Of a stretch of DNA of 64,000 nt, positions 9,661-48,865 are shown piece after piece. Below the pieces are notes generated by a model. That model had not been told where the DNA came from and ran no database searches. It was given only the letters and a program-made list of their open reading frames with translations. The DNA is from Ornithodoros turicata (taxonomy: Eukaryota; Arthropoda; Arachnida; Ixodida; Argasidae), in the NCBI RefSeq assembly GCF_037126465.1, contig NC_088201.1:140928376-140992375 (forward strand). The letters are read 5' to 3'. Made by a program: the position numbers and the translations under genes. Every line of letters starts with the position of its first letter. Within the stretch, counting starts at the first letter, position 1.

Positions 9661-9714
9661 TATGTTCCACTACCACGGCGACGAAATTATTTTCTTCTAC
9701 CGGTCCCTGTAACG

Positions 9715-9897: not shown

Positions 9898-10297
9898 GAA
9901 AGGGTCATCGGCGTCGACGAACCCGTTTCCGGAACAAGTAACACACTCGCGTGTGGTACCGCATTAACGCGTCGGGCGCAGAATCGCGTTCGGTTTCGGA
10001 TACGGCATTATCGAAACGCGGCCCGACGTGTTGCCGAAACGTCTTCTTCGACGCGGATGACCCATTCTTCGAGTTTTAAGTAAATTTCGTTCGGAAAATA
10101 TTTGTAACTTTTAATATCCACGACATAGAGAATTCGCATTATGTTATAGTGTATATACAAAATATCAATCAATTCGATTAAATTATCTGTCATCATGAAA
10201 GAGTGCTCGTTAAAGTGAGCGAGCTAAAGCTTCCGTATTGTGCAGTTACACATTCTACAACACTGATCATAAATCGCAACACCTGTTCAAAATTTAA

Positions 10298-11539: not shown

Positions 11540-12610
11540 TTCTATGTCTTGGATACCTCCATCAAGGTTCGTAGTGTTTGTTAGAATGAAAATTGTATAT
11601 TGGTCGATTTTATGATGGTTCAATGATAGATTATTTTCCTCTGTTGTTGTTTACGTGTCGCCGCTGAGAGTGTTCCTCTGTTGTAGATTGATTAGCTATT
11701 ATTTCTCTATGTGTTGGATGGTGCGCAGGTTTCGCTCTCTATTAATTGTGGCTGTTGATTGTGTTGTTTCTCGTTATTTCCTTACGTCTATGCTGTTCGC
11801 TTAATAAGAAATTGATTAATTAAAAGTTGTGTAATGTTGCAATATGAAACTTAGATTCCCTATCGCGCTCGAAATGTTGTGACAGATATTCACGCTATTG
11901 CAATGATGGTTTTCACGTATAGGAATATTGGACTTTTTATGATACGACTTGTAATTTGATTGTAATCATATTGATTAAGAATATCTTCTTTGTAGTGGTG
12001 TAGATTATATTTCCTCTTGTGTTCGTGTTGTTCTTGTCGTTCGTGTTCCGTGGTCTTCCAGGGTCTCTGCTGTTCGCAATTAATTACATACATCTATCGG
12101 CATCCGTCTTCAACAAATCAGGGCAGATATCATTAGAGCTGGTTGTTTGCTAGGAGAGTGCTATGTGCCGAAGTTCATTTTTAACATATATTTTCTGTGT
12201 TGGATTCATAAAACAAAAGCTAGGTTTGTAGTGTCTCTTAGAATGAAAATTGTATAGTGTTCGATTAGATTATGTCACGAGGATGATTTTATGATGGTTC
12301 CATGATAGATTATTTTCCTCTGTTGCTGTTTACGTGTCGCCGCTTAGAGTGTTCCTCTGTTCTTCAGCGTTAAGTCTGTGCTACAGTGTTAGATTTGTAA
12401 TATTTCTCCATTTGATAGATTGATTAGCTATTATTTCTCTATGTGTTGGATGGTGCGCAGGTTTGGCTCTCGATTAATTGTAGCTATTGATTATGTTGTT
12501 TCTTGTTATTTCCTTACGTCTATGCTGTTCACTTAATAAGAAATTGATTAATTAAAAGTTGTGTAATGTTGGAATATTAAACTTAGCTTCCATATTGTGC
12601 TCGAAATTAC
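11540..12610. repeat. Direct repeats inside the older palindromic element
   Basis: About 11575-11880 and 12223-12600 are diverged copies of one sequence. Shared blocks include ATTATTTTCCTCTGTTG, TGTTTACGTGTCGCCGC and AAGAAATTGATTAATTAAAA. The same words recur in the right arm of the large palindrome (32760-33060). Direct repetition inside the arms is therefore a shared feature of the family. Confidence 0.7.
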
Positions 12611-12914
12611 TTATATCTATCAGAACTTGTAATTAAAGCTGTAATCCAAAATACTATGTTTGATCTGTGATACCTATTGATTGCTATTGTATCGTACCTG
12701 TAGTAAGTATATTCTCTGTTACGTGTATTGTATTGAGTTTCTTCTGCTTCAGTTTTTTTTTTGTTGGCTGGGTTTTTCTCCTCCATACAGAGTCACAGCA
12801 TAATTCCTGACATTATTGACTTCAATAAATATATTTTCACTTGTACTTTTGTGTATGTCTATCCTTTTCACGTCTATACTTGCATGTAAACCGCCTAACA
12901 CAGGCTGTTGTAGC

Positions 12915-13400
12915 GATAAAAATGCCAAAGAAGTCGGCCCAGGCTGAAAAATATGCAACGATAAGTGTACGCGCAAATAATCGTTGATACGTGTATTGTA
13001 TTATGTTTCTTCTGCTTCAGGTTTTTTGGCTGGATTTTTCTCGTTCACACAGAGTTATAGAATAATTCCTGGCACTATTGCCTTTAATAAAGATATTTTC
13101 ACTTGTACTTTTGTGTATGGCTATCATTTGCATGCCTATACTTGCATGTAAACCGCCCACTGCACACCTGTTGTAGTGGAAAAAATTTCTGAGGGAAGTC
13201 GGCCCAGGTGGAAAAATGGCGAAAGAAGTCGGCCCAGGCTGAAAAATACGCTACGATAAGCGCACGCGCAGCCCTCCCCCAGCCGGTAAGCGCGCGGACA
13301 ACCATCCACACACGCATCGCCCGCCAATAAGCGCCTCCACCCTCGCGCCACCCGCCGCGCGCGGGAAAAAATACGCGAGCGAAGTCGGCCCAGGCCCTGT
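12915..13400. repeat. Subterminal iteron-like repeats of the older element
   Basis: The motif GTCGGCCCAGGCTGAAAAA occurs near 12924-12948, near 13197 (with GTGGAAAAAT), near 13228, and partly near 13384. The same motif is repeated near both ends of the large palindrome. Placement near the termini and orientation towards the end suggest binding sites for a transposase or replication protein, which is inference. Confidence 0.6.
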
Positions 13401-20006: not shown

Positions 20007-23000
20007 TCATGGCAGGGAAGGAACCGACCTGACAACCTTGCAGTAGCATGACTCATGCAGCTGGAACACCAGCTTGTTATCTCTCACCTGTACAAGTGGG
20101 GCCCACTCCCACTGTTGCACAGAGCTGTTCCGTTCTGCAGCCCAAAAAAGGCGATTTAGGTGCTCTTTGAAGGATTGCATGGCAGTGTTCACTATGAACC
20201 TAGTAGATGCCCACCGGCGATTGTGTGCAACGTCACAGCAGCGCACTTTCCACAACACCTGCTCAGTCAGGGCGGTTATGAGGATTCGTAGTCTTTTATG
20301 AGTCGTCGTCCAGTCTCTACACGACAACCCCGCCGGAAATCGAAGTATGCTCCTGATAGACATTTCCGACCACGTTTTCCGAGTTATGGGGCATTCCCGG
20401 AAACATGTTGGACGGTTTCCGTTTCTCCGCAGTGTACGCACTCGTCAACGCGAGCTATTCCAACATGCATAAGCCTATCTCGCGTAGGTAAAACTTCCCA
20501 CGCTGCCTTCCATCTCGAGTCTTGCGTTTTCCCCGGCAGCCAAGATGGTGCAACTCCCGTCCAGTTGTGGGCCTGTCGATCGTCACTTGCCTCCAATTTA
20601 AGCAACGCCGTACTCAGTTGCGCAACCGTCATCTCTCGTAGGTCAACATCTGTGTCCATAGCCTTCAATCTTTTGAGATGCTGCACCAGCTTCGCATGGC
20701 GTTGGTTGGGTGTTTCGGCCTTACAACACATTTTCCAGGCCTGATCTTCCAGGACAAACGTCCCCTGGGGCCCCATCTAGTATCTTGGAAGCGCTGCAGG
20801 CGGATCTTCAGATACAGCCGTTTGAAGCAAGGTCTGCAATGCCAAAGTGCTGGCGTATACGTCGAGGTGAGGAAAACATTTTCCTCCTTCACTGGGAGCA
20901 CAGTGCAGTAGGTGGCGCGCCACTAGTGCGGTCGAACTGTCCCAAAAAGAAACCAAACACAAGCGAATGAATTATTCTTACTATCCGTTCAGGAGGAAGA
21001 CATATCCAGGATAAGTACCAACATCTCGTCAGGAAAACGGTTTTCACAAGGTACGTAGCTTGTTCGTTCAAGGAGAAAGAGAACTTACAGACTTCTCTGA
21101 GGCATTCTTGGATTTCGTTTGCCTTTTCCAGCCCCCCCCCCCCCCCAGTTCTTGTTCTTCTCACCATTCTCATCTTCTCGGGCCATTCTCATCAGAGGTA
21201 ATTCCCAGCAGTTTTACTGTGTCACATGTGGATATTGGGACGTCACCCGCAGCAAAACTGCCCAAGGGAAGCAGCTTGCACTTTCCAAGGTTCAATTCAG
21301 ATCCAGGTATGGCACTGTAGTTTTGAAACAGGCGGAGTGCTGCCAGCACAGAGTCAGTGTCTAACACGAAAATCGTCAAATCATCAGCGTACGCGGCAAT
21401 TTGCCATGTCACTTGACCCGGAATCGTTTGTCCCCGCACAGACACACATCTGTCGATCATTCTAATGTAAGGGTCTATGACGATGACAAAGAGGAGGGGG
21501 CGACAAGGGACAACCCTGTCGCACTCCTCTTTTTATGGGGACTGTTTCGCCTACTTTGGCCCCGAAGAGGAGCGTGGCATGTTGTCTCTTGTAGGCTGTC
21601 TTGATACACTCTACGAAAGTCTTAGGAAAGTCGTATTTATTGAGCAGTTCCAAGAGATAATCGTGCGTGACACTGTCAAACGCCTGTTTTTGGTCCAAGG
21701 AGACGACTGCTCCTTTTGCAGTCCGAGCTTTGCTGTATGCAAGCAAGTCGCGTATTCCTGACAAAGTGACGTGTACGCTTCTTTCTTGCACACCACACAC
21801 TTGGGATGCGTGTATTATTGTTGGGAGGACAGCACGCAACCTGTTCGTTAGTAATGCCATCATGATCTTGTAGTCGCTGTTTAGCAGGGATATTGGTCTC
21901 AGGGAAGATGGGTCAGTTACAGACGACTGACTTTTTGGAATGTGTATGACGTAGCTCTCCGTAAAATGTTCGTTCCAGTCACGGTACTTTGCAATGTTGC
22001 GATAAAACTCAAGCAGGAAAGTTCGAAGCTTCGGCCAGAATACTTTATAGAAAAAGCCCTGGAGACCATCCGGCCCCGGTGCTGACCCAGAATGCAAATT
22101 CTTGACGACCATGTCCAGTTCATCTGCCGTAATGGGGCTCGCAGGCATTTCCTTGTCCTCCTGTGAAAGCTTCGGCAGCAAATCCTCCACATTATCCCGG
22201 ATTACAGCTGCAGACACTGATGCGAAGTGTTCCGTAGCATACCGATGGAACTTTTGTTGATTTTCTTCGGATTATCTTCGAGTTCGTTAGCTTCGTTTTG
22301 ACTGGTTCGCACCCGGACCGTCTCAGGAAGCACTTCCGTACCGCCTACGCACTGCGATTCTGCATGTTCCAGCTTCGCCGTCATCGTCGATATCCGTAAT
22401 AACTCCATGTATTGAAACTTCAGCTGTTTCAACGCCGTCTGTGTCATTTCGAAGTTCTTGTTCCCTCTCCGAACGATGCGAATTTTCTTTGCAATGTCTT
22501 GGAGTTCTTTAGTACGTTTCTTTACTTTCCTTTTCCCAAGATCAGTGAAGAGGTTACGCAGATCATCCTTAATTTCCAACCAGCTCTGAAGGGATGTCAA
22601 AGTCCCTCTTAGACGATTGCTAAAAAATTGTTAACTACTAAAAGTCCATGTGAAAGTCTCCAAGGTCTAGTTCCTGCAGAATGTGCACCGAAAATGTTAA
22701 AGGTAGCCACCACGGCTCGATGGTCCGAAACATACAATCCAGTAATAGAAGTTGCAAAAACTTCGCAGCCTCGAGCACCGTTTGCGATGTCTGTTGTCGC
22801 GTACATTCTGTCGAACCGCGAGCCACGAGCACCTCGTGCTCACGTGGTTACGTTTGCGCTGCCTTTAATTCTGCGCCAAATATTATGCAAGTTAAAACGG
22901 CACACAAGACGAGCCAATTCTCGGCTATTTCATACTGCAAAAATACTCCAAAAGCCGGGAGACGACATAACTGGACAAAAAAGTAGAGAACTTCGACTTA

Positions 23001-23278
23001 ACGTAACAAAATTCAAGTAAACAAGTTTCACTCAGACGTTTCGTCCGTCATGTGACGGACATCATCAGTGCGAAACTGGATGAGAGATCATAAATAGCGA
23101 CCGGTTGTATGATCTCTCATCCAGTTTGGCACTGATGATGTCCGTCACATCAAGGACGAAACGTCTGAGAAAAACTTAGTATTTTGTTATGTTAAGTCGG
23201 AGTTCTCTACTTTTTTTGTCCAGTTATTCCATACTGGTCGGTTCTGACCTGGACCTGCTACATCCAACGCACTGCCCA
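20007..23278 (-). pseudogene. L1/Tx1-like retrotransposon ORF2, 3' two thirds (linker, RT, C-terminal zinc motif)
   Basis: Read on the minus strand, pieces in three frames follow the ORF2 order. The end of the endonuclease shows SDHRAVVATF near 22720. A basic linker lies at 22202-22600. RT fingers and palm are at 21462-22217, with GSAPGPDGLQGFFYK, LRPISLLNSDYK, LDQKQAFDSV and GVRQGCPLSP. The palm continues at 21170-21460 with AYADD. The C-terminal region (20384-20776) holds WEVLPTRDRL and CVHCGETETVQH, a typical Cys/His motif of this clade. Frame changes occur near 21470, 21170, 20900 and 20430, and a palindromic MITE interrupts the endonuclease at 22967-23227. It encodes no working protein. 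L1/Tx1 is my best clade guess; the upstream gag with CCHC knuckles fits it. Confidence 0.75.
22967..23227. mobile_element. Palindromic MITE with hammerhead-like cores in both arms
   Basis: The unit starts ATAACTGGACAAAAAAGTAG and ends with the complement. Nearly its whole length is a palindrome with arms of about 125 bp. Each arm carries CTGATGA, a GTCC...GGAC stem and GAAACG: 23132-23161 on the plus strand and 23039-23068 on the minus strand. That layout is the conserved core of a hammerhead ribozyme, known from Penelope-like elements and small retrozymes. The MITE lies inside the endonuclease of the L1/Tx1-like element, whose sequence resumes on both sides, so it is a later insertion. Confidence 0.7.
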
Positions 23279-24150
23279 AAACACAGTTGAAATCCCCAGC
23301 CGAAATAAAGTCTTTATGGTCTAACATATAAACATCTAAATCCTCAAAAAAGGCATAGGTATCTGATGAACGGGCAGGAGCATAAACATTCACTATTCGG
23401 AGCTTTTTTTCCTGACACTTGATGTTTAAGGCGACAATGCGGCCCTCGCTGTCAGGTACCGCAAAGGCGTGTGACTGAAGACCTCTGGTAAAAATTACTG
23501 TCGCAACACCTGTGCACCGACTGGATGCAAGGCTGAAAAAACAGTTAACTCGAAAACGTCTAAAACGTTGAAATCTTCTACTTGCCGAACAGTAGCGAAA
23601 TTAGTATCTTGTAGTAATAAAACATCCAATCGGGCCGCTTGCGCGAAATGCATTACTTCCATTTGCTTTTCTACGTTTCCAAACCCTTGAACTTTCAAAG
23701 TTCCTATTCGAAGGTGCATGGATAGGAGAATGAAGAAATACACTGAGCACAAACACATACCTAATCGTTCAGCATGTCCTCAGATTCGACCGTCACACCG
23801 CTAAAGGAGTCGTCACCAACCCCCCCCCCCCCATCCGCAGCTACAACTACCTTTTTTGTCGTATGAATCACTGCAGGATCTTGGTGGGAATCCGATGATG
23901 ACGTGTGCTGGCGTTTTTTATGCTGCACAGGAGGTTGAGTCATCTTTACCACCGCTGACGCCAAGTTATCCGATGCAGTAGGCACAGGTACTATTCGAAT
24001 GTGTTTTCGTTGTGTTGCAGCAAACAGGAGTTCACCCTCAGAGCTTGAAGTATCAGGCATTCTCTTTTCACTATGTTTGTTGGAGCTGACGGTTTCTTCG
24101 GTAGTGAATGACCCCGAAGACGATGTTATAGCAGAGTTAGATATGTCGTG
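23279..24150. repeat. Left copy of the 872-bp direct repeat flanking the palindrome
   Basis: This segment of the L1/Tx1-like element (end of ORF1 and start of ORF2, minus strand) is repeated at 35185-36056 in the same orientation, at a constant offset of 11,906 bp. I spotted only a handful of differences, for example TTAACTCG against TTCACTCG and CACTATG against CACCATG. Its right edge is exactly the left end of the palindrome. It includes ORF2's start at 23758 and the same frame break after VLDVFE as the right copy, so the duplication came after the retrotransposon had already decayed. Confidence 0.9.
23761..24150 (-). pseudogene. L1/Tx1-like ORF1 (gag), C-terminal end, duplicated copy
   Basis: An open frame to 24060 and beyond matches the last part of the ORF1 at 35667-36449 (AATQRKHIRIVPVP, VQHKKRQHTSSSDSH, VTVESEDMLND). 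It is cut off at 24150 by the palindrome's end. Confidence 0.75.
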
Positions 24151-24234
24151 AGTAGTAATAGGTCTTGTCCAGACTACAAGCTATCCAAACTACAAGGTTC
24201 CTGCCCCTGAGCCCTGCGCGTATTTTTCCTCGCG

Positions 24235-25260
24235 CGCGGCAGGCGGCGCTCGGGTGGAGGCTCTTACCGGTGGGCGGAGCGTGGCCGGAGGGTTGCGTGC
24301 GCGCTTACCCGCTCACATTTTTCAGCCTGGGCCGACTTCTTTCATCATTTCTCAATCTGTGTCGAATTCAATCGCAATTTTCCCCCCGCTACAACAGGTG
24401 TGCAGTAGGCAGTTTACATGCAAAGGATAGCCATACACAAAAGTACAAGTGAAAATATATTTATTAAAGTCATTAGTGTCAGGAATTATGATATGACTCT
24501 GTGTGAAGGAGAAAAACCCAGCCAAAAAATCTGAAGCAGAAGAAACACAATACGTGTAACAAAGATTATACTTATTACAGGTATGATGCAATAGCATTGA
24601 AGGGGTATCACACATCACACACAATATTTTTTATTAGTGGTAATCACGCGTTTTCAATTAAGCAGAAGGGATAGCACATTTAATCAAAGAAGATATTTTT
24701 AATCCATATGATTACAATCAAAATTACAAGTTTTATTATAAAAAGTCTCACATTTTTTCAGCCTGGGCAGGCTTCTTTCGTCATTTTTCAATCTGCGCCG
24801 AATTTTTTCGCGACTTTTTTCCCATGCGCGACATGCGGAGCTCGGGTAGAGGGCTGCTGTGGTGGGCGGAGCGTGGCCTGAGGGTTGCGTGCGCGCTTAC
24901 CCACTCACATTTTTCAGCCTGGGCCGACTTCTTTCATCATTTCTCAATCTGTGTCGAATTCAATCGCAATTTTCTCCCCGCTACAACAGGTGTGCAGTAG
25001 GCAGTTAACATGCAAAGGATAGCCATACACAAAAGTACAAGTGAAAATATATTTATTAAAGTCATTAGTGTCAGGAATTATGTTATGACTCCGTGTGAAG
25101 GAGAAAAACTCAGTCAAAAATCTGATGCAATAGCATTGAAGGGGTATTTTATTAGTGATAATCACGAAAGTTTTCAATTAAGCAGAAGGAGTAGCACATT
25201 TTTAATCAAAGAATATATTTTTAATCAATACGATTACTAACAAATTAAAAGTTTTATTAT
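24235..25260. repeat. Direct duplication of the terminal region, left arm
   Basis: About 24254-24540 and 24840-25130 are nearly the same sequence, offset by about 598 bp. Each starts with GTGGGCGGAGCGTGGCC, then GGGTTGCGTGCGCGCTTACC, an iteron-like motif, CGCTACAACAGGTGTGCAGT and a long AT-rich tail. The mirror image lies in the right arm (about 34075-35098). Tandem copying of the terminus happened before, or was copied to, both arms. Confidence 0.8.
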
Positions 25261-25905
25261 AAAAAGTCTAACATGACAACCATAGCGGAGTTTTAATTAC
25301 ATAGTTCTAATATGTAACTTCATGCGCAACAGCTAATATTCCATTATGATACATTTAATCAAAGAATATATTTTTAATCAATACGATTACTATCAAATTA
25401 AAAGTTTTATTATAAAAAGTCTAACATGACCACCATAGTGGAGCTTTATTTACAAGTGCCGATAGATGTATATGAACAGCAGAGAACATGGAAGACCATG
25501 GGACACGAACACAAGAGGAAATAAAATCTATAACACTACATTGGTTAATCAAAACAACAGAGGAGGAGACTATCATTTTAACTATCATAAAATCATCCTC
25601 GTGACTTCCCCATACAAACCTTACTTTGTTTTATGAATCCAACACAGAAAATACATTAAAAAATGAACTTCACCACATAGCGCGCTCCTAGTCAACAACC
25701 AGCTCTAATAATATCTGTCCTGATTTGTTGAAGACTGGAGGCGTACACTTATGATTGTACACACTGGACTGACTTCTTTGGCTATTTTTCAGCCTGGGCC
25801 GGATTCATTCGCATTTTTTTCATGCGGCGCGCAAGTATAGTGGCATGCAAACTGACAACATCGGACCACATCTTTGGCGATTTTTCACCCTGGGACGACT
25901 TCGTT
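24316..25905. repeat. Iteron-like motif, left arm
   Basis: TTTTTCAGCCTGGGCCGACT, the complement of the motif in the older element, occurs near 24316, 24757 (variant), 24909, 25785 and 25880 (variant), often followed by TTCTTTC and a weaker second half. The right arm has the mirror set near 33430-35017. Subterminal iterons are typical of protein-binding ends of transposons and of viral replication origins; the role here is inferred. Confidence 0.6.
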
Positions 25906-26130
25906 CGCAATTTTTGTCAGGTGGTGTGTGTATCAAAATTAAAAGTTTTATTATAAAAAGTCTAACATGAGTAACCTAGCGGAGTTTTAATTACAAAGTT
26001 CTAATATGTAACTTCAAGAACAATAGATAATATTCCATTATGACACATTTAATCAAAGAAAATATTTTTAATCACTATGATTACAATCAAAATTAAAAGT
26101 TTTATTATAAAAAGTCTAACATTATTATAT
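24736..26130. repeat. Repeated AT-rich units, left arm
   Basis: AAAGTTTTATTATAAAAAGT followed by CTAACAT occurs near 25248, 25404, 25944 and 26096, with a variant near 24733, each followed by a related stretch ending in a GGAGYTTTA-type block. Two larger blocks (25440-25740 and 26150-26480) with GAACAGCAGAGAAC and CCATGGGACACGAACAC-like words are also copies of each other. The mirror set lies in the right arm. Confidence 0.7.
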
Positions 26131-26599
26131 GTGAGCACCATAGCAGAGTTTTATTTACAAATTTCTAATAGGTATAGTTAATTGTGAACAGCAGAGAACC
26201 TGGAAGACCATGAGACACGAACACGAGAGGAAATAAAATCTATAACAATACATTGGTTAATCAAAAACAACAGAGGAGGAGACTATCATTTTTAACTATC
26301 ATAAAATCATCCTCGTGACTTCCCCATACAATTTTCATTCTAAGAGACACTACAAACCTTACTTTGTTTTATGAATTCAACACAGAAAATATATTAAAAA
26401 ATGAACTTCACCACATAGCACACTCAGCCAACAATCAGCTCTAATAATATCTGCCCTGATTTGTTGAAGACGGGAGGCGTACACCTGACAGTTATGAACA
26501 TTTTCGAGCGCAATAGGGAAGATTATTCCAACATTACACAATTAATCAATTTCTTATTAAGTAAACAGCATAGACATATGGAAATAATGAGAAAAACGA

Positions 26600-27105
26600 T
26601 CAACAGCTAATAGAGAACCAAAACACATCACATAAACAACAGACAGCTGCAGGCAAATAAATGAAAAAAGAATCTATCAAAACGATCAACATGCACAAAT
26701 GAATGGCAGAGAAACACTTTGAACGGCACATGACGAATAATTTAATACAGCACAGAGCTAACGCTGAATAGCAGAGAAACAATCTAAACGGCGCATCTGC
26801 CAACGTGTAAACAACAGACAGGAAAATATTACTGAAACAGATAATAGAGAGCCAAAATCCAACACGTAAACAAGAGGTACACAAAGGATAAATAGTTGAA
26901 GAACAATCTAACAAAACAAGAAACATGCACGGATGAATAGCAGAGAAACACTCTAAACGGTGCATCTACCAACGGTAAACAACAGACACATGCAGGAAAA
27001 TAATTGAAAAAGAATCAATCAGAACGATAAACATGCACGGATGAATAGCAGAGAAACACTTTGAACGATGTATCTGCCAACATGTAAACAACACACCGGA
27101 AAATA
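26600..27105. repeat. Minisatellite-like block, left arm
   Basis: Several diverged units of about 90-130 bp contain ATGCACGGATGAATAGCAGA, GAAACACT and CCAACGTGTAAACAACAGAC. The mirror block is at 32230-32735. A 121-codon minus-strand frame (26600-26965, and its mirror 32370-32735) stays open only because the repeat unit has few stops; its translation repeats CFSAIHPCMF. I do not regard it as a gene. Confidence 0.7.
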
Positions 27106-27161
27106 ATAGCAAACATTACAATTTGAAATAATATATCTTTTGAACTATCATAAAATCAACA

Positions 27162-27509
27162 TTGCGAGCTAACAATATCCTACTCAGGCACTATAAACAT
27201 TACCTTGACAGAGTTATTCAAACACACACCACAGCTATACTTTCCACAGTACAACCAGACTCGAGACACGGTGGGGTCACTCTCTCCATCTATGCAGACC
27301 GGTGGGGTCACTCTCTCCATCTATACAGCCCCAAAAGCGGGGAACCCGTTGTCAATCTGCGGGGTGGGGAAATCCTCTCCCTTTTTCAAATTCTTTCCTC
27401 CAAAAAAGGAAATATTCTTAGGACCGGTGTACAGAGGCGAGATTTTTTATTGATCGCAAATAGACATTGGAATTATTCGACTCTCAAGAACACAATAAGA
27501 ACCCTATAA
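27162..27509 (+). CDS. Small ORF in the palindrome's left arm, function unknown
   Basis: 115 codons, mirrored by 121 codons at 31808-32173. A 31-bp tandem duplication (27269-27299 and 27300-27330) lies inside, and another frame (27205-27453) is open over the same DNA, so I cannot say which frame was once coding. No domain recognised. Weak evidence for a gene. Confidence 0.25.
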   Translation: MRANNILLRHYKHYLDRVIQTHTTAILSTVQPDSRHGGVTLSIYADRWGHSLHLYSPKSGEPVVNLRGGEILSLFQILSSKKGNILRTGVQRRDFLLIANRHWNYSTLKNTIRTL

Positions 27510-27739
27510 AAAAAAAATCTAAGAATAGACTTTCTAAGCAAACGAGAAAATATTATCGGTGCAAACAATACTCAACGAGAAACGTTGCATTTAATGTATT
27601 TCAGATCAGACACAACTATTAGGCAATCATTATTCTCAACTCACAAAATATCAATCGAGTGATCATCTGAAACAAAGTCAAAAGCAGTAATTAATTTAGG
27701 CAAACATTTTTCATAATCACACAGCGCAAATATACATCA

Positions 27740-27985
27740 CAGAAACATGTCTTTTTTCATTCAGGACCCACTAGTGGAAACGAAGTGAGAGCGTTCCCGT
27801 ACACATTCGGCAAGGTTACGCCCGCGGGGAGTAGGGGAATCCAAACAATGGTCTCGGTATACAAAGCCATAAAATCGCTCCTACAAGTCAAGTTAGGGAA
27901 GGAGGGTCTCTTGCGCTGTCTTGTACATAGAATCACTGAAAGCAAACGTTTTTCCTTTACACATCACATCTTTTTTGTAAATTGA
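27740..27985 (+). CDS. Small ORF in the left arm, function unknown, possible exon
   Basis: An open frame reads through FPYTFGKVTPAG and YKAIKSLLQVKLGKEGLLRC to a stop at 27985. It has no ATG at its start; instead TTTTTTCATTCAG lies just upstream, which looks like a 3' splice acceptor. The mirror copy at 31357-31557 differs by one residue in the region I compared (H to R). The segment is missing from the older element. The pattern of aromatic/small residues then LG-x-EGLLRC is faintly like the arthropod DM4/DM12 family, but I would not name it on that. Confidence 0.3.
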   Translation, partial: QKHVFFHSGPTSGNEVRAFPYTFGKVTPAGSRGIQTMVSVYKAIKSLLQVKLGKEGLLRCLVHRITESKRFSFTHHIFFVN

Positions 27986-28073
27986 CTTTCATAATTCTAA
28001 CGTCAGGTGGAAGATTACGAACCTGATAATAAAATTTTAATAAATAAAATTAGCACCAATATGACTTAATTAA

Positions 28074-28556
28074 ATGTCGAGGCGCACTACAAAACAGAAC
28101 AGACAACTGATATACATTGAAGAGATGGACAGATTTTGTACTCGTTACCATTCGTCATGGGAGGACCTGATAAAAAGTTGCTTCGAAAAGGAAGAGCCGC
28201 GAAACGATTCATTTATCGCTGCATTTCAATACGTCCTAGACATGGTCGTATTCGGAGATATGGTGCAAATTATGGAGTTCAAGATGCGAGACATTGTATG
28301 TCGAATCTACAATAGTTATAAAAATATTTGCACGTCAACATCGGAAGGACCGTTTGGATTGATGGTGGAGTTTTTGAGGTTCGCTAACGAAGAATTGAAA
28401 TACACTAGACCAAACGTAATTGTAATCATTGCAATGGGCACTGCATTAATCAAGAAAGCAATCAGATCAAATTATCATATACAAGCAGTCTATATCGCAC
28501 GATTCATTACGGATTTGTTGAAATTACACCTAACGGTTGAAATGGAAAGTACATAA
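28074..28556 (+). CDS. Conserved 160-aa ORF of the palindromic element (left arm)
   Basis: The best coding candidate in the element: an intact ATG-to-stop frame, present in both arms here (mirror 30786-31268) and as broken copies in both arms of the older element. It is predicted to be all-helical, without a signal peptide and with no clear membrane segment. The stretch GPFGLMVEFLRFANEEL followed by a helix QAVYIARFITDLLKLHL is reminiscent of the BH1 helix pair of Bcl-2-like proteins (WGR-hydrophobic-F-A spacing). The Trp and Arg of the BH1 motif are not conserved, so this is only a lead. Other divergent helical proteins would look the same by eye. The start is fixed by a stop-rich upstream region. 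Confidence 0.5.
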   Translation: MSRRTTKQNRQLIYIEEMDRFCTRYHSSWEDLIKSCFEKEEPRNDSFIAAFQYVLDMVVFGDMVQIMEFKMRDIVCRIYNSYKNICTSTSEGPFGLMVEFLRFANEELKYTRPNVIVIIAMGTALIKKAIRSNYHIQAVYIARFITDLLKLHLTVEMEST

Positions 28557-28589
28557 AAATATCTTATCACGTGGTATATTCCACCCTAG

Positions 28590-28814
28590 AACCTCTACAC
28601 ATCTACTCATACAAAGAAAGGAAGCATCAATAAGAGATTGTATAAGTTCATCGCGACAAAGTGCAAGTTGTTGAAGCAATACAAACACGGCGACAACATA
28701 TCACCTGCCTTAATCAACGCTGGATTCAAGCGCCCAATAATCAGAATAAACTACCTGATGTCTTCGGAATTCATCAAGCAAGACAACAAACGCAAACTTC
28801 AGAGTTTGGAATAG
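28590..28814 (+). pseudogene. Second small ORF of the palindromic element, C-terminal part (left arm)
   Basis: 74 codons open after a TAG at 28587 and closed by TAG at 28812, with no early ATG. The reading is basic and lysine-rich (KRLYKFIATKCKLLKQYKHG, then SPALINAGFKRP). It begins where the older element's ORF at 9715-9897 ends, sharing HTKK. It starts 33 bp after the 160-codon ORF. I take it as the C-terminal half of a gene whose start was deleted here. Mirror copy at 30528-30752. Confidence 0.35.
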
Positions 28815-28914
28815 AATTGTAATTTATCAAAATAAACAAGTGTATAATTGAAATAATAATTGTATTCTTTGTCATCATTGTAATGTATCCTACACAGCGC
28901 AACGAAAGCAGCTT

Positions 28915-29190
28915 TTGATTAGATTGCTAAGGAGACACCACGTACAAGGATCTTCGCATGGAATCAGCGCTGGCAATCAAAGAGATTTTTACACGACCAC
29001 ACTCTATACAACACCGACGCCCGAAGGAAAGAATTGTAGAAGAATCGATAATAGAAATTTAGAGGCATGTTACATCAATATTTGCTTACAAAGAGGATCA
29101 CTAATATTTTGCGAAAGCTTATTTTACGAATTAAATTGCACAGTGTATATATTTTCTCAAACTATTGGACAGTTGACAATACTATATTGA
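28915..29190 (+). CDS. Small ORF near the centre of the left arm, function unknown
   Basis: 91 codons, mirrored at 30152-30427 with two residue changes (R to S, E to V). A second frame over the same DNA is also open for about 40 codons (TTYKDLRMESALAIKEIF), so the real frame is uncertain. No family recognised. Confidence 0.25.
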   Translation: MIRLLRRHHVQGSSHGISAGNQRDFYTTTLYTTPTPEGKNCRRIDNRNLEACYINICLQRGSLIFCESLFYELNCTVYIFSQTIGQLTILY

Positions 29191-29323
29191 AAGGAATCTA
29201 TTATCAAATGACGCGAAGGTGGAGTCTACAATTCTAATCATCATAACATGCGGTACACAATTCCAATAAGATTTTGGGAGAATCGAATCACACAACTGTC
29301 ATCAGAAATGTTTAATTGCTATA

Positions 29324-30017
29324 CGACGACGCGAGTGACCCTTTCTCCGAGTTTTAAGTAAATTTTGTTCGAAAAATATTCGTAACTTTTACTATCCACG
29401 TCGTGGAGAATTCACATTACGTTATAGAGTATATAGAAAACATCAATACACTCGATTAAATTCTTTGTCATCTCAAAAGAGTTCTTAAAACCTTCGCGTA
29501 TCAAAGTGAGCCAGCTAAAGCTGTGAAATTACGCTTTCTACAACTCAGTTCGTAAATTGCTGTAGCAGTTCAAATTTTAATTAAACACTTACTGATAGTC
29601 TCCACTGCTCCGGAATGTGATCTGATAAATTTTATCAATTAATGTACAAACAAATATCTTGTATACAATGTGTGACTATATAGACAGCTTTTTAATCTAC
29701 ATCTTAAAAAAAATTGTAAGAAAGAGTGTACAGTTTTGACTTTGAAAATTTAAACACGAACCTTTGGTGTTGGAGATTGCGTTTTGATTCATTATGAGCT
29801 AAAATCTTCTAAAATTAATGTATGTCCTTCCAATTGTAGTGCCTCATATGCCGTGACATATCGAATAGACTCGTAGTTTTTCAGTATGGCTAATTAAAAA
29901 CCTCGGGTACATTCTGTGAATTGAAGCTACGTTTATGTGTGCCGCTTTGGTTAAGTTTGCAAAAGGAATATTTACTTATTATAATTACATATCTTATGCA
30001 TAGTGCTCATCTTCATT
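29324..30017. other. Central spacer of the palindrome
   Basis: Unique 695-bp sequence between the arms. Its left half (29345-29660) aligns with the centre of the older element (10055-10375), sharing CGAGTTTTAAGTAAATTT and AATATT/TTTGTAACTTTTA-type blocks. No ORF of note. Being the conserved part of the loop, it may hold a promoter, origin or terminator, but nothing specific can be pointed to. Confidence 0.6.
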
Positions 30018-30151
30018 GTATAGCAATTAAACATTTCTGATGACAGTTGTGTGATTCGATTCTCCCAAAATCTTATTGGAATTGTGTGCCGCATGTTATG
30101 ATGATTACAATTGTAGACTCCACCTTCGCGTCATTTGATAATAGATTCCTT

Positions 30152-30427
30152 TCAATATAGTATTGTCAACTGTCCAATAGTTTGAGAAAATATATACACT
30201 GTGCAATTTAATACGTAAAATAAGCTTTCGCAAAATATTAGTGATCCGCTTTGTAAGCAAATATTGATGTAACATGCCTCTAAATTTCTATTATCGATTC
30301 TTCTACAATTCTTTCCTTCGGGCGTCGGTGTTGTATAGAGTGTGGTCGTGTAAAAATCTCTTTGATTGCCAGCGCTGATTCCATGCGAAGATCCTTGTAC
30401 GTGGTGTCTCCTTAGCAATCTAATCAA
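30152..30427 (-). CDS. Small ORF near the centre of the right arm (mirror of 28915-29190)
   Basis: Same 91-codon frame as the left-arm copy with two amino-acid differences. Function unknown; an alternative frame is also partly open. Confidence 0.25.
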   Translation of the reverse strand: MIRLLRRHHVQGSSHGISAGNQRDFYTTTLYTTPTPEGKNCRRIDNRNLEACYINICLQSGSLIFCESLFYVLNCTVYIFSQTIGQLTILY

Positions 30428-30527
30428 AAGCTGCTTTCGTTGCGCTGTGTAGAATACATTACAATGATGACAAAGAATACAATTATTATTTCAATTATAC
30501 ACTTGTTTATTTTGATAAATTACAATT

Positions 30528-30752
30528 CTATTCCAAACTCTGAAGTTTGCGTTTGTTGTCTTGCTTGATGAATTCCGAAGACATCAGGTAGTTTATTCTG
30601 ATTATTGGGCGCTTGAATCCAGCGTTGATTAAGGCAGGTGATATGTTGTCGCCGTGTTTGTATTGCTTCAACAACTTGCACTTTGTCGCGATGAACTTAT
30701 ACAATCTCTTATTGATGCTTCCTTTCTTTGTATGAGTAGATGTGTAGAGGTT
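30528..30752 (-). pseudogene. Second small ORF, C-terminal part (right arm)
   Basis: Mirror of 28590-28814, lying just downstream of the 160-codon ORF on the minus strand. It also lacks a start codon. Confidence 0.35.
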
Positions 30753-30785
30753 CTAGGGTGGAATATACCACGTGATAAGATATTT

Positions 30786-31268
30786 TTATGTACTTTCCAT
30801 TTCAACCGTTAGGTGTAATTTCAACAAATCCGTAATGAATCGTGCGATATAGACTGCTTGTATATGATAATTTGATCTGATTGCTTTCTTGATTAATGCA
30901 GTGCCCATTGCAATGATTACAATTACGTTTGGTCTAGTGTATTTCAATTCTTCGTTAGCGAACCTCAAAAACTCCACCATCAATCCAAACGGTCCTTCCG
31001 ATGTTGACGTGCAAATATTTTTATAACTATTGTAGATTCGACATACAGTGTCTCGCATCTTGAACTCCATAATTTGCACCATATCTCCGAATACGACCTT
31101 GTCTAGGACGTATTGAAATGCAGCGATAAATGAATCGTTTCGCGGCTCCTCCTTTTCGAAGCAACTTTTTATCAGGTCCTCCCATGACGAATGGTAACGA
31201 GTACAAAATCTGTCCATCTCTTCAATGTATATCAGTTGTCTGTTCTGTTTTGTAGTGCGCCTCGACAT
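30786..31268 (-). CDS. Conserved 160-aa ORF of the palindromic element (right arm)
   Basis: Intact mirror of the ORF at 28074-28556. The two differ at two residues (M to K in LD(M/K)VVFG; I to T in MRD(I/T)VC). Divergent transcription away from, or convergent towards, the centre would be set by the same regulatory sequence in both arms; here both copies read towards the central spacer. Confidence 0.5.
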   Translation of the reverse strand: MSRRTTKQNRQLIYIEEMDRFCTRYHSSWEDLIKSCFEKEEPRNDSFIAAFQYVLDKVVFGDMVQIMEFKMRDTVCRIYNSYKNICTSTSEGPFGLMVEFLRFANEELKYTRPNVIVIIAMGTALIKKAIRSNYHIQAVYIARFITDLLKLHLTVEMEST

Positions 31269-31356
31269 TTAATTAAGTCATATTGGTGCTAATTTTATTT
31301 ATTAAAATTTTATTATCAGGTTCGTAATCTTCCACCTGACGTTAGAATTATGAAAG

Positions 31357-31557
31357 TCAATTTACAAAAAAGATGTGATGTGTAAAGGAAAAACGTTTGC
31401 TTTCAGTGATTCTACGTACAAGACAGCGCAAGAGACCCTCCTTCCCTAACTTGACTTGTAGGAGCGATTTTATGGCTTTGTATACCGAGACCATTGTTTG
31501 GATTCCCCTACTCCCCGCGGGCGTAACCTTACCGAATGTGTACGGGAACGCTCTCAC
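31357..31557 (-). CDS. Small ORF in the right arm (mirror of 27740-27985)
   Basis: 66 codons, differing from the left-arm copy by H to R in the residues I compared. The upstream acceptor-like pyrimidine run is changed to an A-rich run on the plus strand (AAAAAAAAA near 31580), lengthening the tract. Confidence 0.3.
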   Translation of the reverse strand: MRAFPYTFGKVTPAGSRGIQTMVSVYKAIKSLLQVKLGKEGLLRCLVRRITESKRFSFTHHIFFVN

Positions 31558-31807
31558 TTCGTTTCCACTAGTGGGTCCTGAAAAAAAAAGTGATGTATAT
31601 TTGCGCTGTGTGATTATGAAAAATGTTTGCCTAAATTAATTACTGCATTTGACTTTGTTTCAGATGATCACTCGATTGATATTTTGTGAGTTGAGAATAA
31701 TGATTGCCTAATAGTTGTGTCTGATCTGAAATACATTAAATGCAACGTTTCTCGTTGAGTATTGTTTGCACCGATAATATTTTCTCGTTTGCTTAGAAAG
31801 TCTATTC

Positions 31808-32173
31808 TTAGATTTTTTTTTTTTTTGATAGGGTTCTTATTGTGTTCTTGAGAGTCGAATAATTCCAATGTCTATTTGCGATCAATAAAAAATTTCGCCT
31901 CTGTACACCGGTCCTAAGAATATTTCCTTTTTTGGAGGAAAGAATTTGAAAAAGGGAGAGGATTTCCCCACCCCGCAGATTGACAACGGGTTCCCCGCTT
32001 TTGGGGCTGTATAGATGGAGAGAGTGACCCCACCGGTCTGCATAGAGGGAGAGAGTGACCCCACCGTGTCTCGAGTCTGGTTGTACTGTGGAAAGTATAG
32101 CTGTGGTGTGTGTTTGAATAACTCTGTCAAGGTAATGTTTATAGTGCCTGAGTAGGATATTGTTAGCTCGCAA
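31808..32173 (-). CDS. Small ORF in the right arm (mirror of 27162-27509)
   Basis: 121 codons carrying the same 31-bp tandem duplication (32005-32067) as the left copy, with length differences in an A/T run at the end. No domain recognised. Confidence 0.25.
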   Translation of the reverse strand: MRANNILLRHYKHYLDRVIQTHTTAILSTVQPDSRHGGVTLSLYADRWGHSLHLYSPKSGEPVVNLRGGEILSLFQILSSKKGNILRTGVQRRNFLLIANRHWNYSTLKNTIRTLSKKKKI

Positions 32174-32229
32174 TGTTGATTTTATGATAGTTCAAAAGAT
32201 ATATTATTTCAAATTGTAATGTTTGCTAT

Positions 32230-35098
32230 TATTTTCCGGTGTGTTGTTTACATGTTGGCAGATACATCGTTCAAAGTGTTTCTCTGCTATTCATCCGTGC
32301 ATGTTTATCGTTCTGATTGATTCTTTTTCAATTATTTTCCTGCATGTGTCTGTTGTTTACCGTTGGTAGATGCACCGTTTAGAGTGTTTCTCTGCTATTC
32401 ATCCGTGCATGTTTCTTGTTTTATTAGATTGTTCTTCAACTATTTATCCTTTGTGTACCTCTTGTTTACGTGTTGGATTTTGGCTCTCTATTATCTGTTT
32501 CAGTAATATTTTCCTGTCTGTTGTTTACACGTTGGCAGATGCGCCGTTTAGATTGTTTCTCTGCTATTCAGCGTTAGCTCTGTGCTGTATTAAATTATTC
32601 GTCATGTGCCGTTCAAAGTGTTTCTCTGCCATTCATTTGTGCATGTTGATCGTTTTGATAGATTCTTTTTTCATTTATTTGCCTGCAGCTGTCTGTTGTT
32701 TATGTGATGTGTTTTGGTTCTCTATTAGCTGTTGATCGTTTTTCTCATTATTTCCATATGTCTATGCTGTTTACTTAATAAGAAATTGATTAATTGTGTA
32801 ATGTTGGAATAATCTTCCCTATTGCGCTCGAAAATGTTCATAACTGTCAGGTGTACGCCTCCCGTCTTCAACAAATCAGGGCAGATATTATTAGAGCTGA
32901 TTGTTGGCTGAGTGTGCTATGTGGTGAAGTTCATTTTTTAATATATTTTCTGTGTTGAATTCATAAAACAAAGTAAGGTTTGTAGTGTCTCTTAGAATGA
33001 AAATTGTATGGGGAAGTCACGAGGATGATTTTATGATAGTTAAAAATGATAGTCTCCTCCTCTGTTGTTTTTGATTAACCAATGTATTGTTATAGATTTT
33101 ATTTCCTCTCGTGTTCGTGTCTCATGGTCTTCCAGGTTCTCTGCTGTTCACAATTAACTATACCTATTAGAAATTTGTAAATAAAACTCTGCTATGGTGC
33201 TCACATATAATAATGTTAGACTTTTTATAATAAAACTTTTAATTTTGATTGTAATCATAATGATTAAAAATATTTTCTTTGATTAAATGTGTCATAATGG
33301 AATATTATCTATTGTTCTTGAAGTTACATATTAGAACTTTGTAATTAAAACTCCGCTAGGTTACTCATGTTAGACTTTTTATAATAAAACTTTTAATTTT
33401 GATACACACACCACCTGACAAAAATTGCGAACGAAGTCGTCCCAGGGTGAAAAATCGCCAAAGATGTGGTCCGATGTTGTCAGTTTGCATGCCACTACTT
33501 GCGCGCCGCATGAAAAAAATGCGAATGAATCCGGCCCAGGCTGAAAAATAGCCAAAGAAGTCAGTCCAGTGTGTACAATCATAAGTGTACGCCTCCAGTC
33601 TTCAACAAATCAGGACAGATATTATTAGAGCTGGTTGTTGACTAGGAGCGCGCTATGTGGTGAAGTTCATTTTTTAATGTATTTTCTGTGTTGGATTCAT
33701 AAAACAAAGTAAGGTTTGTATGGGGAAGTCACGAGGATGATTTTATGATAGTTAAAATGATAGTCTCCTCCTCTGTTGTTTTGATTAACCAATGTAGTGT
33801 TATAGATTTTATTTCCTCTTGTGTTCGTGTCCCATGGTCTTCCATGTTCTCTGCTGTTCATATACATCTATCGGCACTTGTAAATAAAGCTCCACTATGG
33901 TGGTCATGTTAGACTTTTTATAATAAAACTTTTAATTTGATAGTAATCGTATTGATTAAAAATATATTCTTTGATTAAATGTATCATAATGGAATATTAG
34001 CTGTTGCGCATGAAGTTACATATTAGAACTATGTAATTAAAACTCCGCTATGGTTGTCATGTTAGACTTTTTATAATAAAACTTTTAATTTGATAGTAAT
34101 CGTATTGATTAAAAATATATTCTTTGATTAAAAATGTGCTACTCCTTCTGCTTAATTGAAAACTTTCGTGATTATCACTAATAAAATACCCCTTCAATGC
34201 TATTACATCAGATTTTTGACTGAGTTTTTCTCCTTCACACGGAGTCATAACATAATTCCTGACACTAATGACTTTAATAAATATATTTTCACTTGTACTT
34301 TTGTGTATGGCTATCCTTTGCATGTAAACTGCCTACTGCACACCTGTTGTAGCGGGGAGAAAATTGCGATTGAATTCGACACAGATTGAGAAATGATGAA
34401 AGAAGTCGGCCCAGGCTGAAAAATGTGAGTGGGTAAGCGCGCACGCAACCCTCCGGCCACGCTCCGCCCACCACAGCAGCCCTCTACCCGAGCTCCGCAT
34501 GTCGCGCATGGGAAAAAAGTCGCGAAAAAATTCGGCGCAGATTGAAAAATGACGAAAGAAGCCTGCCCAGGCTGAAAAAATGTGAGACTTTTTATAATAA
34601 AACTTGTAATTTTGATTGTAATCATATGGATTAAAAATATCTTCTTTGATTAAATGTGCTATCCCTTCTGCTTAATTGAAAACGCGTGATTACCACTAAT
34701 AAAAAATATTGTGTGTGATGTGTGATACCCCTTCAATGCTATTGCATCATACCTGTAATAAGTATAATCTTTGTTACACGTATTGTGTTTCTTCTGCTTC
34801 AGATTTTTTGGCTGGGTTTTTCTCCTTCACACAGAGTCATATCATAATTCCTGACACTAATGACTTTAATAAATATATTTTCACTTGTACTTTTGTGTAT
34901 GGCTATCCTTTGCATGTAAACTGCCTACTGCACACCTGTTGTAGCGGGGGGAAAATTGCGATTGAATTCGACACAGATTGAGAAATGATGAAAGAAGTCG
35001 GCCCAGGCTGAAAAATGTGAGCGGGTAAGCGCGCACGCAACCCTCCGGCCAAGCTCCGCCCACCGGTAAGAGCCTCCACCCGAGCGCCGCCTGCCGCG
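32230..35098. repeat. Repeat-rich outer half of the right arm
   Basis: Mirror image of 24235-27105: minisatellite-like block (32230-32735), the AT-rich repeated units (about 33200-34600) and the duplicated terminal region with iteron-like GTCGGCCCAGGCTGAAAAA near 34400 and 34998 and variants near 33530 and 34560. Confidence 0.75.
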
Positions 35099-35184
35099 CG
35101 CGAGGAAAAATACGCGCAGGGCTCAGGGGCAGGAACCTTGTAGTTTGGATAGCTTGTAGTCTGGACAAGACCTATTACTACTAC

Positions 35185-35664
35185 AAACACAGTTGAAATC
35201 CCCAGCCGAAATAAAGTCTTTATGGTCTAACATATAAACATCTAAATCCTCAAAAAAGGCATAGGTATCTGATGAACGGGCAGGAGCATAAACATTCACT
35301 ATTCGGAGCTTTTTTTCCTGACACTTGATGTCTAAGGCGACAATGCGGCCCTCGCTGTCAGGTACCGCAAAGGCGTGTGACTGAAGACCTCTGGTAAAAA
35401 TTACTGTCGCAACACCTGTGCACCGACTGGATGCAAGGCTGAAAAAACAGTTCACTCGAAAACGTCTAAAACGTTGAAATCTTCTACTTGCCGAACAGTA
35501 GCGAAATTAGTATCTTGTAGTAATAAAACATCCAATCGGGCCGCTTGCGCGAAATGCATTACTTCCATTTGCTTTTCTACGTTTCCAAACCCTTGAACTT
35601 TCAAAGTTCCTATTCGAAGGTGCATGGATAGGAGAATGAAGAAATACACTGAGCACAAACACAT
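35185..35664 (-). pseudogene. L1/Tx1-like ORF2, endonuclease N-terminal half
   Basis: Starts at 35664, two bases after the ORF1 stop. It reads LRIGTLKVQGFGNVEKQ, LLLQDTNFAT, a frame break near 35455, then IVNVYAPARSSDTYAFFEDL and SAGDFNCV, the pattern of an APE-type endonuclease (Q-D/E-T and GDFN motifs). It is cut by the palindrome at 35184; the duplicated copy at 23279-23758 continues to the rest of the enzyme. Confidence 0.75.
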
Positions 35665-36056
35665 ACCTAATCGTTCAGCATGTCCTCAGATTCGACCGTC
35701 ACACCGCTAAAGGAGTCGTCACCAACCCCCCCCCCCCCATCCGCAGCTACAACTACCTTTTTTGTCGTATGAATCACTGCAGGATCTTGGTGGGAATCCG
35801 ATGATGACGTGTGCTGGCGTTTTTTATGCTGCACAGGAGGTTGAGTCATCTTTACCACCGCTGACGCCAAGTTATCCGATGCAATAGGCACAGGTACTAT
35901 TCGAATGTGTTTTCGTTGTGTTGCAGCAAACAGGAGTTCACCCTCAGAGCTTGAAGTATCAGGCATTCTCTTTTCACCATGTTTGTTGGAGCTGACGGTT
36001 TCTTCGGTAGTGAATGACCCCGAAGACGATGTTATAGCAGAGTTAGATATGTCGTG
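35185..36056. repeat. Right copy of the 872-bp direct repeat flanking the palindrome
   Basis: Same orientation and nearly the same sequence as 23279-24150. Two bases (AC, 35183-35184) lie between the palindrome's right end and this repeat. On its right it continues without a break into the upstream part of ORF1, so this copy is contiguous with the 5' half of the retrotransposon and the left copy with the 3' half. Confidence 0.9.
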
Positions 36057-46609: not shown

Positions 46610-47912
46610 GATTGATTAATGATAAAAAAGAGAGAAAGCAAGCTCGATGGTGGCAGATCTCCATAACGAAAACCCGGGACTAGGGAAAAACAATTAAACT
46701 AGGACGCATACAAACGCAGGTCTCAAACACAACACAGCTGACGTTTTAAGGCGCAATTCGAAGAAATATACAGAAACAGCAAGATCACGGTGGAATGGGG
46801 AGCAACTTTCCCAAATAAGGTACGAGGGCCACAGAAACATTGCTGACACATTTCCCACAGGTCAGGATAGAAAGGGTTTCCCTCAAAAGTATGTTATTGT
46901 GATCGGGTTCCAAGGCTCTTACGCGGGTATCTTTATATGTGAACACAGCTATTACATTCATCAACATGCTTGACTATTTCCGAGGTGCGACCGTTATTTT
47001 TCACTTCTAGAGCATGCTCACACAAGCAGTTGTTTAAGCCTATTTCCTTTTTTTTTAAAGCATATTTAACATAAGGACTTTTGTGGTGTTTACAAAGGCA
47101 CTCAGTCTTGCCAAAGGGGTGAGCGCATCCAATCTAAAATCATTTTTAAAAACCAAATCCACATTGAACTTCCGTGCTAGAAGCAGCAAGTTATGAGACA
47201 CATTGTGGTAAGAGGGATTACAACACGGTTGGAAGGATGAACAAGATTTTTCACTTAACTACACCTCGCTTAACTACCTTAGTGCAACCTTGGGACAACA
47301 TATGCTTAGAGTATCCTGCTACATGTAACCGGCTGAACTGCCGGCGTATTGAAGACATTAAATGATGCAAACATTATTCTTTGACAGCATTCTTTAGAAT
47401 ACCCGTAATTACACCAAACTTCACTGAATTCGAATGACAACTTTTAGCTGACCAAACAGGCTTCTGTTTAGATTTTCCATAATCCCAGCGCAAAGTTGGT
47501 TCTAAAAAGAGCTTCAAGTCAAGAAAGGGGAGTGGTAGTAAAGTACCTTGTGTGGGGAACTCAGAAGTGAAAGACAATTCAGGTGGAGAAGCTAAAATCA
47601 CACCTTTGCATTCAACAATACTCAGGCGATCACAAGACACGATTATGAAATCATCAACAAACGTCCTCACAAGAATAGCAGCGGGAGAACGCGATGACAC
47701 ACAGGAGAGAACAGGAGGATCTACAACGCACAAATAAATCTCAGCCAGAATTGCGGCAATAGCAGAACCAATGCACATACCACTTTTCTGGGTGAACAAA
47801 TAACCTCCAGCATTAATGGTTCTAGATTTGAAATTCAAACTCCAGAATGCGCAAAAAAATCTGGAATTGAAAGGCCATCTTTTGCCGGGAAACTCACAAG
47901 ACGATCTTCGAG
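46610..47912 (-). pseudogene. Penelope-like element, RT C-terminal part and endonuclease (3' half)
   Basis: The minus strand reads LEDRLVSFPAKDGLSIPDFF near 47905, then INAGGYLFTQKSGMCIGSAI, VRTFVDDFIIV (the YVDD box as FVDD), FLDLKLFLEPTLRWDYG, then the linker and the C-terminal part of the endonuclease. Compared with the copy at 54900-55960, about 45 bp around the CG-x-x-YIGQ motif are missing near 47060-47090, so the GIY-YIG nuclease core is gone. The 5' half of this same element is at 54025-54800; the two are separated by inserted I-clade sequence. The 3' end near 46610 matches the end of the 55960 copy. Confidence 0.72.
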
Positions 47913-48853: not shown

Positions 48854-48865
48854 CCCGTCAGCCCT

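Follow-up and report, generated by a model that had tools for sequence, protein, structure and literature searches.

What kind of element forms the palindrome at positions 24151..35182 of the window (the whole 64,000-nt stretch of the Ornithodoros turicata genome analysed here, to which all coordinates refer), and how did its two halves come to be so alike? The first-pass annotation described a near-perfect palindrome of unknown class. Self-BLAST confirmed the palindrome: the left arm (24151-29324, forward strand) and the right arm, its reverse complement (35182-30018, reverse strand), are 99.21% identical over 5,179 columns, with 22 mismatches and 3 gap openings, and the element ends in 5'-AGTAGTAATAGG ... 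CCTATTACTACT-3'. That it is an assembly artefact is very unlikely, because the same mirror-image unit recurs dozens of times and on many contigs, and target duplications flank those copies that were read.

A dispersed family of mirror-image copies

A genome search with the arm, copy counting and end mapping, as proposed in the first-pass annotation, revealed a dispersed family of mirror-image copies with precise ends. An open reading frame of the arm, ORF-A, was found at no fewer than 92 loci (genome search, best 150 of 4681 candidates), and at least 58 loci contain two copies of it; all 58 pairs are mirror-image and convergent, and in 39 of them the paired ORF-As lie 3,326-3,421 bp apart. These copy numbers are lower bounds, because only part of the candidates was scored in the searches with the arm (29 of 8020), the inner part of the element (40 of 2099) and ORF-A. 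One copy, C291, equals the copy at C1:70.66 Mb in length (10,629 bp) and layout; therefore, the 92 loci probably include one insertion twice. The length of C184 equals that of copy B, which may be another double count. Among the matches listed, 22 of the 26 exact-terminus palindromes with ORF-A are 10.2-13.1 kb long.

Polinton ends and two small reading frames

The element ends, 5'-AGTAGT...ACTACT-3', assign the palindrome to a known context. The motif (AGT)2//(ACT)2 was present in all nine scored copies, the window copy among them, and perfect 6-bp target site duplications (TSDs) flank nine of the ten copies read at both ends (eight of the nine scored, plus copy H from the same output); this count is without copy P, whose outer ends were not scored, and the halves L029-L033, read at one end each. 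For Maverick elements, termini of the form 5'-(AGT)2//(ACT)2-3' with 6-bp TSDs are given in a passage of PMC8097293. The class was thus not as obscure as first annotated: the ends are those of Polintons/Mavericks.

Polintons reside in the same genome. The terminus pattern had 175 matches against 0 for the control, and at least 91 matches to the Polinton DNA polymerase PolB were obtained (91 scored of 1253 candidates). Among the matches listed, 39 exact-terminus pairs were found, of which 4 enclose PolB, 26 enclose ORF-A and 9 enclose neither; no pair encloses both, and the 91 scored PolB matches all fall outside the 26 elements with ORF-A. All three PolB elements whose two ends were read have 6-bp TSDs and share terminal sequence with the palindromes, and one PolB Polinton, read in part, encodes an rve integrase (5.8e-15) and a Pox_A32-like packaging ATPase (3.9e-8). 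The three helper Polintons measure 11.5, 13.2 and 14.5 kb. The terminal identity between palindromes and autonomous Polintons extends up to 321 bp at 96-97.5%. In the window copy, the left terminal segment (24151..24471, forward strand) shares 96.0% identity with the corresponding end of the autonomous C9 Polinton, whose left end is of the palindrome type; the mirror segment (34862..35182, reverse strand) has limits set from the left one. The nested direct repeats of the arms, annotated as iteron-like, are real in self-BLAST, and some of them are second internal copies of this terminal segment, positions 67-321 of the C9 left end matching the window arm at 659-914 with 90.4% identity.

A catalogued transposon or virus resembling the arms had been named as evidence against an unknown class. 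The termini (about 320-420 bp) have such a match; for the remaining arm sequence no described relative was found. The annotated absence of recognisable replication, integration and capsid genes also held, both in ORF scans and in a tblastn comparison in which six ORFs located in the leftmost 6 kb of the helper Polinton C1 had no match at 0.01 in two whole and two half palindromes; two of the six are capsid-like, a name given from their position without a family match. No description of palindromic or non-autonomous Polintons was found in searches of the open-access literature.

The short conserved ORFs noted in the arms are borne out by low pN/pS across copies. The family has two small ORFs per arm, both with low pN/pS, and both are apparently under purifying selection, as judged from substitution patterns; the ORF-A sample comprised 25 reads (31 minus 6 that were broken, truncated or from an old copy), and the summed value was calculated from 11 representatives of these. 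In the window copy ORF-A is intact in both arms (28074..28556, forward strand, and 30786..31268, reverse strand; 160 aa each). ORF-B is broken: by alignment with copy J, its remnant occupies 28607..28814 on the forward strand, with the start lost in a 159-bp deletion at 28605/28607, and the mirror remnant occupies 30528..30735 on the reverse strand, with the same deletion at 30735/30737. No relatives of ORF-A or ORF-B were detected in a protein search or among solved structures, where ORF-A gave chance-level matches only (E 0.67 or worse), and none was accepted in viral contigs; one viral-contig match (L035) lies inside a contig ORF resembling a phage tail gene and was judged to be chance. A structure search with a low-confidence single-sequence model of ORF-A, for which a Bcl-2 fold was one candidate, gave no significant match.

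The window copy is the sole one of the ten without a 6-bp target duplication, which speaks against the explanation preferred below. Where this is expected, it is flanked by an 872-bp direct repeat of LINE sequence (23279..24150 and 35185..36056 by self-BLAST), whose copies have the same orientation and differ by 4 mismatches. The repeat was probably created at insertion: the two ends would have attached to target sites separated by 872 bp, for instance one on each sister chromatid, so that 872 bp instead of 6 bp were duplicated. The arms and the flanking repeat are similarly diverged (22/5179 and 4/872; Fisher p 0.78), although four differences give the comparison little power; equal divergence is to be expected if the arms were identical at insertion.

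The centre and the similarity of the arms

An unpaired stretch lies between the arms, as annotated (29325..30017; 693 bp, given as 695 bp), but it is not an independent segment. It is the unpaired inner part of the right half and matches the corresponding part of copy J, while its left partner is missing from the window copy. Judging from this alignment, the spacer is what remained after a one-sided deletion that removed the equivalent of about 817 bp of copy J, including the centre and the greater part of the core. In copies J, K and L only a short core departs from symmetry, and the central 182-183 bp are asymmetric and conserved in five copies. In copy J the core folds into a stem, bulged on one side, with a large loop (z -8.1), which is partly expected of any palindrome centre. 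Next to the core, the stem positions of copy I are symmetric in one direction and those of copy K in the other, and in B and L they are mismatched. Deletions of 216 bp and 159 bp are present in both arms of the window copy and absent from the seven other copies aligned to J, and one-sided deletions in copies D and E remain uncorrected. An unbroken genome-search match prompted the idea that the window copy shares its centre deletion with the copy at C3:56.61 Mb; the breakpoints differ, and the two deletions therefore had separate origins.

In nine of ten copies, copy H being left out of the comparison, the arms of one copy are more alike than either is to any arm of another copy. The identities within the copy and to the best other copy are 100.00 and 99.14 for J, 99.92 and 99.14 for I, 99.94 and 98.45 for L, and 99.74 and 96.8 for P. 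The excess is small in B (99.57 versus 99.36) and in D and E (99.50 versus 99.36), and the order is reversed in G, where the right arm is rearranged (98.35 within, 98.88 to another copy); both observations count against the explanation preferred below.

Origin and relationships of the palindrome

These data make it likely that the palindrome is a non-autonomous, probably helper-dependent palindromic satellite of Polintons/Mavericks, whose arms became identical ahead of insertion, perhaps by way of a strand annealed to itself. Since it has Polinton ends without recognised Polinton enzymes, its copying and insertion most likely rely on Polintons, and the protein-primed PolB and the integrase of the resident elements would act on it in trans. 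Because replication by PolB displaces single strands, a displaced palindrome strand could snap back into a single long hairpin whose loop would be the conserved asymmetric core. If this hairpin were repaired or copied again, its two arms would become identical prior to insertion, after which they would diverge and the centre would gain one-sided deletions.

The arms of a Polinton-related element might instead be kept identical after insertion by arm-to-arm gene conversion, as in Y-chromosome palindromes. High arm identity within copies agrees with this, and the stem sites corrected in both directions fit any arm-to-arm conversion; however, the uncorrected deletions of D and E, the arms of G, which resemble another copy more closely than they resemble each other, and, at low power, the equal divergence of the window arms and the flanking repeat make such conversion unlikely. 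Somewhat less doubtful is a mobile unit in the form of a ~5.9-kb monomer that ends in a Polinton terminus on one side and in a closed hairpin on the other; replication round the hairpin would then have produced the palindrome as a head-to-head dimer. The asymmetric centre kept in five copies and the bulged stem-loop of J are in its favour, as are the large symmetric deletions, which follow at once if one arm is copied; but palindromy by itself accounts in part for the central fold, and no linear intermediate with a covalently closed end is known for Polintons.

Both classes considered in the first-pass annotation are highly improbable. A cut-and-paste transposon of the Foldback/Galileo type, with inverted repeats of great length, would share the long repeat-rich inverted arms, but the target duplications are of 6 bp, not 7-9 bp, and the end sequence is that of Polintons. 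In the ORFs scanned (five of the window element and four of copy J) no transposase match was found; a relation to P-type or MULE transposases would be expected of this class. Head-to-head dimers of a parvovirus-like hairpin virus, once integrated, would have this geometry and an arm length near 5-6 kb, but they do not account for the precise Polinton ends and TSDs, and the same nine ORFs gave no Pfam match to Rep or capsid.

The preferred reading, a palindromic Polinton satellite, can be compared with several known systems. Polintons/Mavericks share the termini, the 6-bp TSD, terminal sequence and a similar total length with the palindromes; unlike them, the palindromes tested have no PolB, integrase, ATPase or capsid match and consist of a single mirror-image unit with two ORFs of their own, lacking detected relatives. 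The adenovirus SYREC (symmetric recombinant), a defective virus from culture, is likewise a linear genome with protein-primed replication that has become a large palindrome, one of its ends being present twice, whereas the present family is dispersed in the germ line, with conserved ORFs and integration. MITE-like non-autonomous DNA transposons also have only their termini in common with a resident helper, but they are short and gene-free, while the palindromes are mostly 10-13 kb long and ORF-bearing. Satellite viruses and virophages use the enzymes of a helper, as the palindrome would, and AAV-like self-complementary genomes consist, as it does, of self-complementary DNA; unlike these, the palindrome is known here from genomic sequence, not as a particle or free genome. 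A more far-reaching and tentative possibility is a self-complementary DNA satellite virus of Polintons, whose single-stranded genome would be one long hairpin packaged by Polinton capsids of matching capacity, with arms that proof-read each other every cycle, a small helper or anti-apoptotic (Bcl-2-like) protein of its own, and exchange of ends with its helpers, of which the palindrome-type left end of the C9 Polinton would be an example.

As a rule, chromosomes do not maintain long perfect palindromes stably, yet palindromes of 10-13 kb spread here as a family with near-identical arms in each copy. If the preferred reading is true, ORF-bearing elements live as parasites of Polintons, and protein-primed replication is able to sustain a genome that is self-correcting through folding. 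Insertions would then be datable by the divergence of their arms, as with LTRs, and Polinton activity, together with the exchange of ends between helper and parasite, would be readable from the family.

Copy number, ends and geometry of the family

A search of the 1.07 Gb genome, whose size and LINEs mark it as eukaryotic, together with a count of copies, placed the window palindrome in a dispersed family: the arm as query gave at least 124 matches (29 candidates scored), its inner part at least 283 (40 candidates scored), and ORF-A, a 160-aa ORF of the arms, at least 150 matches of 93-100% identity at 92 or more loci (150 of 4681 candidates scored, all 150 matching). All nine scored copies start with 5'-AGTAGTA and end with its mirror, and perfect 6-bp target duplications flank eight of the nine, the sole failure being the window copy; a tenth, copy H, has AACATC on either side. 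Ends of the form (AGT)2//(ACT)2 and 6-bp duplications are hallmarks of Mavericks (Polintons), as excerpted from PMC8097293. The terminus pattern occurs 175 times, and its reversed control 0 times.

Among the matches listed, two ORF-A copies are found at 58 loci and face each other in 58/58. They lie 3,326-3,421 bp apart in 39 loci, the main class, while the centre is shorter in 17 and longer in 2. The insertions recorded on contig C291 and at C1:70.66 Mb are probably one and the same. End to end, copies J, K and L form inverted repeats (98.4-99.4%), except for a short core, which with its stems measures 182-183 bp in five copies and is 96-99% alike between copies sharing reading direction. The core folds strongly, as is to be expected at the centre of any palindrome. 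The adjoining stem is symmetric in copy I in one version and in K in the other, and mismatched in B and L. At C5:39.39-39.41 Mb, ORF-A of one arm is split by a tandem array of ~105-bp units (read at two loci, L017 and L018, 2.5 kb apart). The window also holds an older, broken relative (9262-13389; ~73-89% identity in pieces), in which two decayed copies of ORF-A mirror each other.

The window copy and its flanks

The first-pass annotation described two near-identical arms of ~5.17 kb, and self-comparison of the window bears this out, 24151-29324 pairing with 35182-30018 at 99.21% identity (5,179 columns, 22 mismatches) and 29325-30017 remaining unpaired. The 695-bp spacer that it set apart is not a separate part, given the end-to-end symmetry of J, K and L; ~817 bp across the centre of copy J is missing here. 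Such centre losses recur, since the one in the copy at C3:56.61 Mb has breakpoints that differ on both sides from those of the window copy. Both window-copy arms also lack 216 bp and 159 bp at matching places, and seven other copies aligned to J are free of these losses. The 159-bp loss removed the start of ORF-B, the second small ORF, from both arms, and therefore the window copy appears to have been mobilised without an ORF-B of its own.

An 872-bp direct repeat flanks the palindrome (23279-24150 and 35185-36056, 4 mismatches). The 5' part of a LINE in the right flank, the 3' part in the left and the common 872 bp are read as a single LINE with its middle duplicated. The duplication would arise from two end-joinings at separate places on sister chromatids; recombination between two insertions may instead have produced it. 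The arms (22/5,179) and the flank repeats (4/872) differ at an equal rate (p 0.78, of low power with 4 differences); supposing that insertion created the repeat, the arms started out identical and have stayed uncorrected, as far as this low-power test reaches. A self-palindrome of 261 bp (84%) lies directly outside the repeat at 22967-23227, and a distinct one of 421 bp (89%) at 1285-1705. Elsewhere in the window, 48758-53780 and 56023-58666 contain a LINE whose two long open frames run to 457 and 1,248 codons, along with fragments of an inverted second copy, ~86-87% identical; candidate ORFs at 47374-47838 and 55387-55821 resemble, by eye, parts of Penelope-like reverse transcriptase and GIY-YIG.

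Arm ORFs and resident Polintons

Short conserved ORFs had been noted in the arms, and codon comparison agrees: summed pN/pS of ORF-A is 0.18 across 11 representatives and 0.19 in another alignment, and that of ORF-B (~115 aa) is 0.16, against a median of 0.80 for 37 scorable arm ORFs. The test is indicative, short of proof, because two further short ORFs, one antisense to ORF-A, are equally low. The searches run detected no relatives of ORF-A or ORF-B. The predicted ORF-A structure is helical and poor (pLDDT 58); its Foldseek list contains many Bcl-2 proteins, none significant, and a second aligner ranked other helical bundles at the top. By eye, two ORF-A stretches resemble BH3 and BH1, which we take as a lead only.

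Polinton gene products include a protein-primed PolB and a DDE integrase, according to an excerpt of PMC6431247. The genome holds at least 91 matches to Polinton-type DNA polymerase B, many within open frames of >1,100 codons. In the left 6 kb of one PolB element lie matches to rve integrase (5.8e-15) and to a poxvirus-A32-like ATPase (3.9e-8); 6-bp duplications flank all three PolB elements read, two of which have terminal repeats (349 and 362 columns, 99.1-99.2%). Six ORFs of the first candidate helper, Polinton C1, have no match in four palindrome sequences tested, consistent with the earlier statement that the palindrome has no recognisable replication, integration or capsid gene. Among the matches listed, 39 exact-terminus pairs <40 kb apart enclose ORF-A in 26 cases, PolB in 4, both in 0 and neither in 9, two of these nine matching the inner part of the palindrome.

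The left 321 bp of the C9 Polinton (C9:2305419-2319946) is 96.0-97.5% identical to palindromes A, B, D, E and G, and its right end largely belongs to a different type; the termini of the other two PolB elements read are ~90-92% identical to the outer arm of J. The simplest reading of these sequences is that ends were swapped between helpers and palindromes, the C9 Polinton apparently being a product of terminal exchange. The autonomous Polinton at locus L034 carries two broken, tandem ORF-A fragments (4331-4400 and 4426-4490; 75 and 83 columns, 80% and 72%), between the integrase and a downstream gene that is a candidate capsid by position.

Arm identity and a proposed fold-back replication

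Identity was scored over the stretch homologous to 25354-29324 of the window. The arms of J are identical over 3,966 positions, its nearest other copy reaching 99.14%; arm-arm and nearest-copy values are 99.92 and 99.14% for I, 99.77 and 98.89% for K, 99.74 and 96.8% for P, 99.94 and 98.45% for L, and 99.57 and 99.04% for the window copy. The excess is small in B, D and E and reversed in G, leaving nine of ten copies in favour. The losses confined to one arm in D and E seem to be later events.

Protein-primed polymerases carry out strand displacement. A displaced strand of the palindrome could fold back on itself, would then offer a double-stranded end carrying an origin, and could be repaired against itself. 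A closely competing model derives the palindrome from a monomer that ends in a hairpin. The fold-back scheme would account jointly for the within-copy identity, the symmetric deletions, the spared core and the probable dependence on helpers.
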